From the IMG/VR virus record IMGVR_UViG_3300030102_005041, positions 1-46,660 of that record: 46,660 nucleotides of DNA. One strand, 5' to 3'. A model generated the notes under the pieces. It was not told the DNA's origin, did not search any database, and was given only the letters and a program-made list of their open reading frames with translations. The translations under genes and the position numbers were made by a program. Source of the DNA: a virus. Within the stretch, counting starts at the first letter, position 1. The number at the start of each line of letters is the position of its first letter. Shown here one piece after another: positions 34,541-46,516 of this stretch.

Positions 34541-34797
34541 AATACAATAACAACATCTGGTTGTCTAATAACAAGATAAAACTTGTCTTCAACTTCTACA
34601 CCAAAACCAGCATTTTTATCATAATAAACAGTATCACCGTCTTTTACACCTTCAACTAAATTTCCGGCTGACTTAATAATACCTTTACGATATCTAACAT
34701 CTTCTTTTATTTTATCTGTTAAAAGTAACCCACCTTTTGTTTTAGTAGGTTTTTCTTTTATTTCTTCTACAACTAAAAATATACCTACTGCTCTCAT
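34537..34797 (-). CDS. groES: GroES-like co-chaperonin
   Basis: The 86-residue protein fits the size of a GroES. It has a mobile-loop segment KTKGGLLLT near residues 20-28 (compare E. coli KSAGGIVLT), a strand YRKGIIKSAGN, the signature VKDGDTVYYDKNAG and a C-terminal strand DKFYLVIRQPDVVIVL. It would cap the chaperonin ring made by the adjacent GroEL. It overlaps groEL by an ATGA junction and is translated after it, the reverse of the usual groES-groEL order in bacteria. The mobile loop carries the hydrophobic LLL contact residues. The assignment is strong because of the neighbouring GroEL. Confidence 0.9.
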   Translation of the reverse strand: MRAVGIFLVVEEIKEKPTKTKGGLLLTDKIKEDVRYRKGIIKSAGNLVEGVKDGDTVYYDKNAGFGVEVEDKFYLVIRQPDVVIVL

Positions 34798-36338
34798 AAC
34801 TCTCTCATGTTGCTAATTACACAATCAGTAGATAATATTGTAGTTGCTACAGATACAGCGTTTTTTAAAGCTGTTTTAGTTACTAGCACTGGATCTATAA
34901 TACCAGATTTAACCATATTAGCTGGTTTGCCAGTTACCACATTTATACCCCAACCTTTTTTGTTAAGCTCTTCAAAGCTTATACTAGCGTTGTTTAGTAT
35001 TGTTTTATAAGGTGCTTTTATAGCTTCTATAAATATTTTTTCACCTTCAGTTTTACAGCTTAAACTATTAGCTGCATTTAATAAAGCTACACCTCCACCT
35101 GGAACTATACCTTCTTTTATTGCAGCTTTTGTTGCGTGTATCGCGTCATCAACTCTGTCTTTCTTTTCTTTTAACTCAACATCAGAGTTAGCACCTACAG
35201 TTATAACTGCTACATTACCAGATAAAACGCCTAAACGTTCTTGTAGTTTTTCAGTTTTTAAACCAGGTGCGTTTGTGTTAATTTGATCTTCAATTGATTT
35301 AATTCTTTCTTTAGCAACTTCAGAAATATTAGATATTTTTAAAACTGTTGATTTACTGTCTGAAACAGCACTATCACATTCACCTAACATATCTGGAGTT
35401 ATAAGATCTACATCATCGCCGTATTCTTCGTTAATATGAACAGCTCCAGTAACAGCAGCAATATCATCTAAAAAATCTTTTTTCCAGAAACTAAATCCTG
35501 GAGGCGCAACAACGTTTGCTTTTATGTTACCTTTTATTTTATTCATAACTAAAGCGCTCATAGGTTGTTTATCTAATTCACCTATAATTAAAATGCTTCT
35601 GTTATTTTCAACAGCATATTCTAATACTGTTTGTATTTTTCTTACAGTTGTTATTTTAGAAGAAACTAATAATACTAAAGGTTTTTCAAGAGTAACATTT
35701 TGTTTTGTCACATCTGTTACAAAGTTTGGGTTTGCAAAACCTTGATTTATCTGAGAACCTGAAACAAGTTCTACGCTAGTTTCTTCAGATTTAGTATCAG
35801 TGTCCATAAGCACAACACCGTTTTTACCAACCTTTTTAAAAGCATCACCAATTATGTAGCCAAGGTTTTTATCGTTATTTGACGATATGCAAGCAACTTG
35901 GTCAATCATATCACCTTCAACAGGTATTGATACTTTATTTAAATACTTTATAGTTTTATCGTAACATTTTTGTATATCTTCTTTTATGTTACGTAAAGAT
36001 TGTTTATGGTTTTTAGCTTTATCTATAAAAGCATGAGCTAAAACTGTAGCTGTTGTAGTACCGTCTCCAGCTTCGGTTACAGTTTTTCTAGCAGCCTCTT
36101 TTATTAATGTAGCACCAATATCTTCTACAGCATCGTGTAGATTAACTGAGTTAGCTACAGTTACACCGTCTTTTGTAATTAACGGTCGACCCATAAAGTC
36201 TTCTAATATAACACACTTACCGCTAGCTCCTAATGTAGAGCTAACGGCTTGTGTTAATTTTGTAATACCATTAAACACTTTTTCTTGAGCATCACTGCCA
36301 AAGTTTAAGTGCTTCACTATTTTTTGTGAGTTTTGCAT
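34794..36338 (-). CDS. groEL: GroEL-like chaperonin
   Basis: The 514-residue protein aligns along most of GroEL. ATPase residues are intact: KDGVTVA (D57), GDGTTTATVL (D92) and EKKDRVDDAIHAT with D398, plus VPGGGVALL near 412-420. The usual phosphate-loop TLGPKGRNV reads TLGASGKCVI. The apical part differs from E. coli at substrate sites: GFANPNF for GYLSPYF, and KIQTVL for EMLPVL. The C-terminus stops at ISNMREL and lacks the GGM tail; the full protein is about 30 residues shorter than E. coli GroEL. It probably folds phage virion proteins such as the capsid or giant proteins. Phage chaperonins are rare but known. Confidence 0.93.
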   Translation of the reverse strand: MQNSQKIVKHLNFGSDAQEKVFNGITKLTQAVSSTLGASGKCVILEDFMGRPLITKDGVTVANSVNLHDAVEDIGATLIKEAARKTVTEAGDGTTTATVLAHAFIDKAKNHKQSLRNIKEDIQKCYDKTIKYLNKVSIPVEGDMIDQVACISSNNDKNLGYIIGDAFKKVGKNGVVLMDTDTKSEETSVELVSGSQINQGFANPNFVTDVTKQNVTLEKPLVLLVSSKITTVRKIQTVLEYAVENNRSILIIGELDKQPMSALVMNKIKGNIKANVVAPPGFSFWKKDFLDDIAAVTGAVHINEEYGDDVDLITPDMLGECDSAVSDSKSTVLKISNISEVAKERIKSIEDQINTNAPGLKTEKLQERLGVLSGNVAVITVGANSDVELKEKKDRVDDAIHATKAAIKEGIVPGGGVALLNAANSLSCKTEGEKIFIEAIKAPYKTILNNASISFEELNKKGWGINVVTGKPANMVKSGIIDPVLVTKTALKNAVSVATTILSTDCVISNMREL

Positions 36339-45546: not shown

Positions 45547-45786
45547 TTATTTACAATTATTTATTCTAGTACCTCTACCGTGGCCGCTTCTGTTCGCTTT
45601 CATTGAAACAAAACGTTTTTTAGTGTGGTCGTAGTCTTTACCTTCTATGTTTTTACCAGCTTTTATAGCTTTTCTGCGCTTTCTTTGGTTTTCTGCACGC
45701 ATTTTCTTACGTCGAGGGCTATTTGCAGCTGCTAGATCTCTCTTGCGTTTAGCTGCAAGCGCTCTTTTTGATAATTTTTGCGGCAT
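45547..45786 (-). CDS. Small basic protein, first gene of the leftward late operon
   Basis: The 79-residue protein is highly basic (KRALAAKRKRDLAAANSPRR, KKMRAENQRKRRKAIKAGKN) and ends in a conserved block GKDYDHTKKRFVSMKANRSG, HGRGT. I recall the DHTKxxFVSxKxNRGxxGxGT block from small phage proteins with no clear role. There is a His/Asn arrangement that hints at an HNH-like or nucleic acid-binding element, but it is too short to claim. It is the first gene downstream of the divergent control region, so it probably has strong expression. Confidence 0.74.
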   Translation of the reverse strand: MPQKLSKRALAAKRKRDLAAANSPRRKKMRAENQRKRRKAIKAGKNIEGKDYDHTKKRFVSMKANRSGHGRGTRINNCK

Positions 45787-45834: not shown

Positions 45835-45917
45835 TTTTAAGGTATTATTTTTTACTTAATTTTTTATTAGTGTGACAATAGGGTATTACTTATATACCTT
45901 AAAAGCCTTATGTCACA
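45835..45917. repeat. Nested inverted repeats with GGTAT/ATACC core
   Basis: TTTTAAGGTAT (45835-45845) pairs perfectly with ATACCTTAAAA (45894-45904). TGTGACA (45871-45877) pairs with TGTCACA (45911-45917). A further GGTAT at 45882-45886 faces ATACC at 45894-45898, and TAGGGTAT (45879-45886) pairs with ATACCCTA (45961-45968). The arms could be protein-binding sites or fold as hairpins. It lies 49 bases from the first leftward gene. Confidence 0.6.
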
Positions 45918-46007
45918 TTTTTTAACTAAAAAGTTGTTGCTAATTGTGAGTATTTGCTCTATACCCTAACTCGTTGACTACCAGCCAGTTACGAAAACGC
46001 CTTTTTT

Positions 46008-46087
46008 GGCCCCATGGGCCCCCCTGTTAAGGCCCCCTAGGCCATATTTTTAGGTTTTGGCCCCCCTGGCTAGCCCCGTAGGCCCCA
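46008..46087. repeat. GC-rich GGCCCC palindrome cluster
   Basis: An 80-base island of G+C-rich sequence stands in an A/T-rich region. It contains several GGCCCC-like copies, a 10-base direct repeat GGCCCCCCTG (46017-46026 and 46059-46068, 42 apart) and three palindromes: CCCATGGG (46011-46018), CCTAGG (46036-46041) and GGCTAGCC (46068-46075). No coding or RNA gene signal is visible. A protein-binding site, origin element or structured transcript is possible. Confidence 0.65.
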
Positions 46088-46107
46088 GATGATGTATAGC
46101 ACAACTT

Positions 46108-46125
46108 TAATACGACTGCACATAG
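46108..46125 (+). promoter_or_regulatory. T7-RNA-polymerase-promoter-like sequence
   Basis: TAATACGACTGCACATAG shares the first ten bases of the T7 promoter consensus (TAATACGACT) and the ATAG at the initiation end, 14 of 18 positions. It points right, towards the gene at 46289. No T7-type RNA polymerase gene is in the window, and no second copy was noticed. It may be a single-subunit polymerase promoter or coincidence. Confidence 0.3.
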
Positions 46126-46171
46126 ATAATATAATAAAATTAACTATGCTACTTATAAATAAATATTAAAC

Positions 46172-46199: not shown

Positions 46200-46288
46200 T
46201 TAAAAAAACACAATTTAAATACTAACACTATTAGATAATATAAATGTAAATAACTTTTAAAAATAATAATAACTTAAAACAAATAACT

Positions 46289-46516
46289 ATGCAAACTTTA
46301 AAATCAAAACGCTTCGTAATTCGCAAATCACTAATTGGCAAAAATCAAATCATTGAAGTAACTTTCAAAAATGGCAAAAAAGCAAAGTATAATCATGACC
46401 TCGCTTACAACATAATGCAAAGCAAACTAAATACTATGCCTTGCTTTGAAAAATACAAAAGCTATACAAGTAGCACTTCAATACCAGTAATTCTACGTGA
46501 CAAAGTAATACTTTAA
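46289..46516 (+). CDS. Small rightward protein of unknown function
   Basis: The 75-residue basic protein starts MQTLKSKRFVIRKSLIGKNQ, with a strand pair IIEVTFKNGKKAKYNHDLAY, then a helix and an end STSIPVILRDKVIL. The beta hairpin may be an SH3- or Tudor-like element, but this is weak. It is the first gene to the right of the divergent region, and a clear terminator hairpin follows it. The start has the A-rich upstream AAACAAATAACT typical of this genome. It likely belongs to the early or middle genes. No family is recognised. Confidence 0.7.
   Translation: MQTLKSKRFVIRKSLIGKNQIIEVTFKNGKKAKYNHDLAYNIMQSKLNTMPCFEKYKSYTSSTSIPVILRDKVIL

Follow-up and report, generated by a model that had tools for sequence, protein, structure and literature searches.

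In tailed phages, control regions for divergent early and late transcription, represented by the lambda-type promoter-operator, combine divergent promoters with a palindromic operator that is shared with the regulator's own gene. Plasmid Rep proteins likewise regulate their own expression by way of an inverted operator. Where origin DNA is AT-rich, its opening is favored by GC-rich flanks, as illustrated by P1 plasmid oriR (reviewed in PMC5043065). In flavobacteria, sigma-A promoters carry a -7 box of the form TAnnTTTG (PMC9723704).

The locus analyzed here lies in a 46,660-nucleotide stretch of viral DNA, hereafter the window, which comprises positions 1-46660 of a 48,790-bp IMG/VR virus scaffold. 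Its terminase, portal, and capsid genes identify the virus as a tailed flavobacterial phage, and the group to which it belongs consists of uncultured marine flavobacterial podoviruses. Flavobacterium phage elemo (Elemovirus), Cellulophaga phi38:1 (Pervagoviridae), Maribacter phage Panino, and the uncultured podovirus MW202828 are distant relatives. A phage-encoded GroEL, found in the leftward arm of the window at 34794-36338, is common to the elemo, phi38:1, and MW202828 phages. The window is coded almost wholly leftward, and at its right end a rightward early arm begins. The features of this divergent region are as follows.

45547-45786, minus strand: first leftward gene, of the structural arm, encoding a 79-residue basic protein (PHROG 6437)
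45872-45916, no strand: 45-bp imperfect inverted repeat GTGACAATAGGG...GCCTTATGTCAC, the presumed operator of a 206-residue helix-turn-helix (HTH) protein, conserved in relatives
45934-45968, minus strand: promoter-like core element of the leftward unit, present once per genome; the family consensus lies around GnAACAC...CCCTATATTTnTAACAA
45992-46007: conserved spacer of A/T tracts on the left side of island A, CGAAAACGCCTTTTTT (AAAAAAGGCGTTTTCG on the minus strand)
46008-46024, no strand: island A, GGCCCCATGGGCCCCCC, the GC island conserved across the family, with a plus-strand T-tract ahead of it at 46002-46007; aligned in 46 loci
46031-46043: island A', GGCCCCCTAGGCC, an extra module confined to the window lineage (window, L102, L103)
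46059-46086: island B, GGCCCCCCTGGCTAGCCCCGTAGGCCCC, a second module lying some 50 bp to the right of island A and kept in a subclade
46100-46134, plus strand: early-type promoter repeat, copy 1 (CACAACTTTAATACG...TAGATAATATAA)
46209-46243, plus strand: early-type promoter repeat, copy 2
46289-46516, plus strand: first rightward gene, encoding a 75-residue protein that is a conserved neighbor in 55 viral loci

The GC-rich block of the window

A first-pass annotation had singled out positions 46008-46087 as an 80-base cluster of GGCCCC-type repeats, and closer analysis bears this out. GGCCCC occurs five times in the window, each time within the block and on the plus strand, as against a mean of 1.29 in shuffled sequences, none of which (0/100) reached five. 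As computed on the window sequence, the block contains 52 GC in 80 positions (65%). This makes it the richest 80-mer of the window, the next separate one having 43, and the highest value reached when the window was simulated 100 times with a first-order Markov model was 48. The three palindromes that had been reported begin exactly at 46011 (CCCATGGG), 46036 (CCTAGG), and 46068 (GGCTAGCC), and the 10-base direct repeat GGCCCCCCTG is present at 46017 and 46059, a spacing of 42. The placement of the block between divergent transcription units was likewise correct, as it occupies the intergenic region between the leftward gene at 45547-45786 and the rightward gene at 46289-46516. The extreme contrast with A/T-only flanks was overstated: the flanks are AT-rich, but their GC content is 38% in the left and 23% in the right 80 bp, and an AT stretch (46044-46058) lies inside the block itself.

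Two further assemblies, L085/L102 and L086/L103, have the same block with a few substitutions and C-run indels, and the block is therefore no read-level artefact. The annotation had proposed a search for the motif at the same place in relatives, and equivalents are present at 46 related loci, as well as at the 30 loci inspected in further genomes. C runs are error-prone, and their indels vary among the two assemblies and the window, yet against the independent assemblies and these equivalents, an origin of the block in chance or in misassembly is so improbable that it can be set aside. The block is thus a real feature, far from chance, with the proviso that its C-run lengths depend on the assemblies and are uncertain in their exact values.

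The CATG- and CTAG-centered palindromes fall within the modules listed above, of which island A' sits between islands A and B in the window lineage. Island B is found in eight further loci (L104, L105, L107, L108, L109, L113, L115, and L130), and the exact pattern of island A plus its T-tract matches only six viral contigs, all in the island-B subclade. In the spacer at 45992-46007, minus-strand alignment columns A34, T43, and T44 are conserved in 94% of 34 sequences, so that the conserved element reaches past the left edge (46008) originally assigned to the block. The ancestral part of the block is island A with its flanking tracts, and the block as a whole is an expanded version, specific to its lineage, of a GC island shared across the phage group. 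A G-quadruplex was rejected as the conserved principle: several G-runs are present only in the window subclade, and most relatives have one.

A search with the block pattern also picked up a look-alike cluster, GCGGCCCCCTAGGCCCCCTCTATTAGGCCCCCTCGGCCCC, near the end of an unrelated viral contig of 56% GC (L101:247-320). Given the GC content and unrelated context of this contig, and a rough estimate that a collection of this size should yield a few matches by chance, the resemblance is probably due to chance, and a shared element was discounted.

The conserved element and its probable regulator

The gene for the 75-residue protein, immediately right of the block, was found in 55 viral loci, and the intergenic region of related loci contains a 45-bp inverted repeat with the consensus GTGACAATAGCC...GGCTTATGTCAC. 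The 46 sequences having this repeat, window included, were aligned with MAFFT; they represent fewer than 46 independent lineages, as the populations from which some of the contigs derive are closely related. In the aligned loci, the 45-bp inverted repeat is followed by a core that is conserved and, beyond this, by a C-rich island with flanking T-tracts. The island is present in 46 of 46 loci, with at least 10 of 12 positions GC in 83% of them versus 5% of shuffles, and it has a base polarity on the plus strand, where C and G stand at 382:157.

The distance between the conserved TTA of the core and the island is 72.9 ± 1.0 bp across the 46 loci (range 71-75), the TTA columns being those defined by MAFFT, with nearly no gaps between TTA and island. 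About 28 columns of this interval are without any conserved base. The distance from repeat to core is variable (16.8 ± 6.7), as is that from the island to the early promoter, which ranges from 53 to 647 bp. The constancy of the core-island distance, set against the variability on the early-promoter side, therefore implies that the island is part of the leftward unit.

Scored with a position weight matrix, the best core match in the window reaches 26.7 bits and the runner-up 11.9, and the divergent site scores 27-40 bits in all of five genomes, the window among them, with values of at most 12 elsewhere; this matrix was derived from an alignment to which the window and some of the five genomes contributed, and the independent evidence is the following model search. 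A model built from the sequence of core and island alone was run on 36 further genomes, which were picked solely for encoding the 206-residue regulator and none of which is among the contigs used for the model. A site was found at E ≤ 1.4e-4 in 34 of the 36; of the other two, one gave a weak match (E 0.18) and one gave none. Only one of the 34 genomes (G017) had a second match below 1e-3. Nearly every genome of the group thus has the element, almost always in a single copy. At the 30 model-hit loci that were inspected, the island has 9-12 of 12 positions GC, for example GGGGGCCCGG and GGTGGGGCTGG (strand-corrected), and in the 23 loci where the repeat pattern was recognized, the island end lies 86.5 ± 3.1 bp from the repeat. 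Together, island, core, and repeat are a single-copy, putative control element of approximately 150 bp that is shared across this phage group.

Several further observations concern the early region. An additional inverted repeat of this kind, lacking a GC island, lies upstream of a copy of the 75-residue gene in the early region of a number of loci (L104, L105, L107, L108, L110, L112, L117, L119, L120, L135, L136, and L152-L154). The 75-residue gene occurs twice in several genomes (G009, G011, G012, G014, G015, and G016), and contigs ending within about 150 bp of it include L106, L109, L114, L119, L127-L130, L133, and L146; in G000, an N gap (46661-46670) is located near this gene. In the window and its relatives, an early promoter-like motif, TTACAAACAAAATACGA...GATAATATAAATG, clusters near the beginning of the rightward arm, within its first kilobases, and is unlike the flavobacterial sigma-A promoter.

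The 45-bp repeat also links the divergent site to a second gene. At 61 of 80 loci encoding the 206-residue protein, a copy that satisfies the strict pattern covers the start codon of its gene (GGCTAATGTCAC), and nearly all of the other loci have the repeat with a decayed left arm. These copies (L179-L258, for example L184:2463-2507; also G007:50480-50524) have the same orientation to transcription as the divergent site read leftward. Because the repeat covers the regulator's start codon in this orientation, it is probably the operator of the 206-residue HTH protein, through which the leftward genes would be controlled. The occurrence of the same operator at the regulator's own gene is as expected of an autoregulated promoter-operator, and the protein may repress or tune both its own gene and the leftward arm.

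A DNA-binding domain is indicated by a C-terminal HTH in the 206-residue protein, which gives a weak but repeated signal: its HTH_23 match has E = 5.7e-4, below Pfam's own cut-off. The AlphaFold model has a pLDDT of 88, and the HTH part alone resembles known regulators (DtxR/IdeR-type winged HTH). The protein has no Pfam match above cut-off and no PHROG match; PDB sequence and fold searches gave no confident relative, and the fold search returned weak local matches, mostly to transcription proteins, with no initiator among them. No tblastn match to the gene was obtained in any of 50,697 phage records, and in bacterial genomes it was found on four short MAG contigs only, with no clear prophage. 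The gene adjoins one for a sigma factor and has Erf, exonuclease, and primase-helicase genes nearby. L085/L102, the close relative of the window, encodes the regulator (L184).

Possible functions of the element

The reading that we prefer, and hold to be about evenly balanced between right and wrong, is that the GC island serves as a fixed upstream element of a single leftward promoter-operator. Read leftward, the unit would consist of an A-tract, the G-rich island, a further A-tract, some 73 bp (about seven helical turns), the core (CCCTATATnTnTAACAA-like), about 17 bp, the 45-bp inverted-repeat operator, and the structural genes. Polymerase, probably with the phage-encoded sigma factor, would engage at the core, and the repeat would be bound by the 206-residue HTH protein that also controls its own gene. 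The island could act as an activator site or as a stiff barrier, in the latter case shielding the core from torsional stress that arises at the divergent early promoters. The first-pass annotation had offered three interpretations of the block, namely a replication origin, a site bound by a phage protein, and a hairpin-forming transcript. A protein site appears to fit best, with the island as a fixed part of an element beside a very probable operator.

A core that is not repeated is unusual for a general late promoter, and no copy was found before the HTH gene or other late genes. If it is a promoter, one long operon would have to follow from it. A host sigma-A promoter was discarded as an explanation of the core, as the -7 box TAnnTTTG is present in only 3 of 34 cores; recognition by the phage sigma factor could account for this mismatch.

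The principal rival is that the element is the phage origin of replication, which we regard as a serious but less probable possibility. According to this proposal, the repeat would bind an initiator, namely the autoregulated 206-residue HTH protein, the AT-rich repeat and core region would melt, and the stiff GC island would confine the opening. The anatomy of the element would suit an origin too. In favor of this reading, there is essentially one copy per genome, the intergenic region that holds it is among the few large ones, the autoregulation pattern is initiator-like, and GC-rich flanks favor the opening of AT-rich origin DNA (PMC5043065). Against it, searches for DnaA boxes and iterons revealed no cluster and no array, respectively, and thus neither the initiator boxes nor the iterons of an iteron/DnaA-type origin; the fold search with the HTH protein pointed mostly to transcription proteins rather than to an initiator; and the repeat is also present at island-free sites.

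A switch in GC skew had been suggested as a further check on an origin. The cumulative minimum does lie at the divergent region or within about 2.3 kb of it in five relatives, with G004 as an exception, but it has no diagnostic value. In elemoA, the groEL gene is on the opposite strand within the plus arm, and its skew is reversed (-0.293, as compared with +0.14 to +0.28 for the arm). The skew minimum is uninformative on replication because GC skew follows gene strand, and it was accordingly withdrawn as origin evidence.

A further proposal, which we think rather unlikely, is a new type of composite phage control/origin element, where the A-tract-flanked G-tract, about seven helical turns from the core, would be a torsional barrier or an architectural element. 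Its length, GC content, and strand polarity would then be kept as much of its sequence drifts, and it could be multiplied, as in the window lineage.

It is improbable that the GC island is a mere boundary, terminator, or polymerase block separating early and late transcription. The island does sit between divergent units, and in some relatives a plus-strand C-run followed by a T-run is terminator-like, but no stem-loop terminator was found in the block, and a terminator would not require a fixed 73-bp spacing to the core. Folding of the block gave z = -0.41 on both strands, which supports no RNA fold, RNAalifold on 34 relatives returned 0 pairs, and an Rfam search matched no family. Structured RNA was rejected on the fold z-scores and the lack of a single conserved pair, and the suggested hairpin-forming transcript is not supported.

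Even more doubtful is a packaging (pac/cos) or recombination site, for which the uniqueness of the element per genome and the many group contigs that end just right of the 75-residue gene could be cited, as the terminase genes are far away, the contig ends lie outside the block, and they are better accounted for by the duplicated 75-residue gene and the variable early region.

Comparison with known systems

A limited check of the open literature found no previous report of an element of this kind in the group, and we know of no prior account of arm switching or replication start in a group that is abundant in the viral contig collection (at least 600 stretches matched in a terminase search) and whose regulator has no match in the 50,697 phage records. 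The repeat, core, island, and 73-bp spacing define a precise, testable cis-element, together with a likely regulator.

Among described phages, the Pervagoviridae and Elemovirus members phi38:1 and elemoA resemble the group in having homologous terminase and capsid genes and two divergent gene arms. Neither elemoA nor MW202828 was found to have the 45-bp repeat, and it was not seen in the inspected divergent-region sequence of phi38:1 and Panino. The sole C5+ run of the elemoA genome (NC_055852.1, position 19929), a possible distant counterpart, falls in its divergent region and, with gene order as the reference, lies on the opposite strand.

The core is A/T-rich and TATA-like when read leftward, in which it resembles flavobacterial sigma-A promoters (PMC9723704). 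It differs from them in that TAnnTTTG is confined to those three cores, whereas positions C83, C92, A96, and A103 (alignment A2) are invariant. With P1 plasmid oriR-type origins (PMC5043065), the element shares an AT-rich stretch near a GC-rich stretch, a site for a possibly autoregulated protein, and its single copy. In contrast to these origins, it contains one large inverted repeat rather than iterons or DnaA boxes, the fold search gave no initiator, and its core and island are held at a fixed distance of 73 bp.

The lambda-type control regions are similar in their divergent promoters, in a palindromic operator shared with the regulator gene, and in the pairing of a phage regulator with a sigma factor. 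Unlike in those regions, the regulator here is without a Pfam match above cut-off or a PHROG match, the operator overlaps the regulator's start codon, and a GC island lies upstream at a fixed distance.
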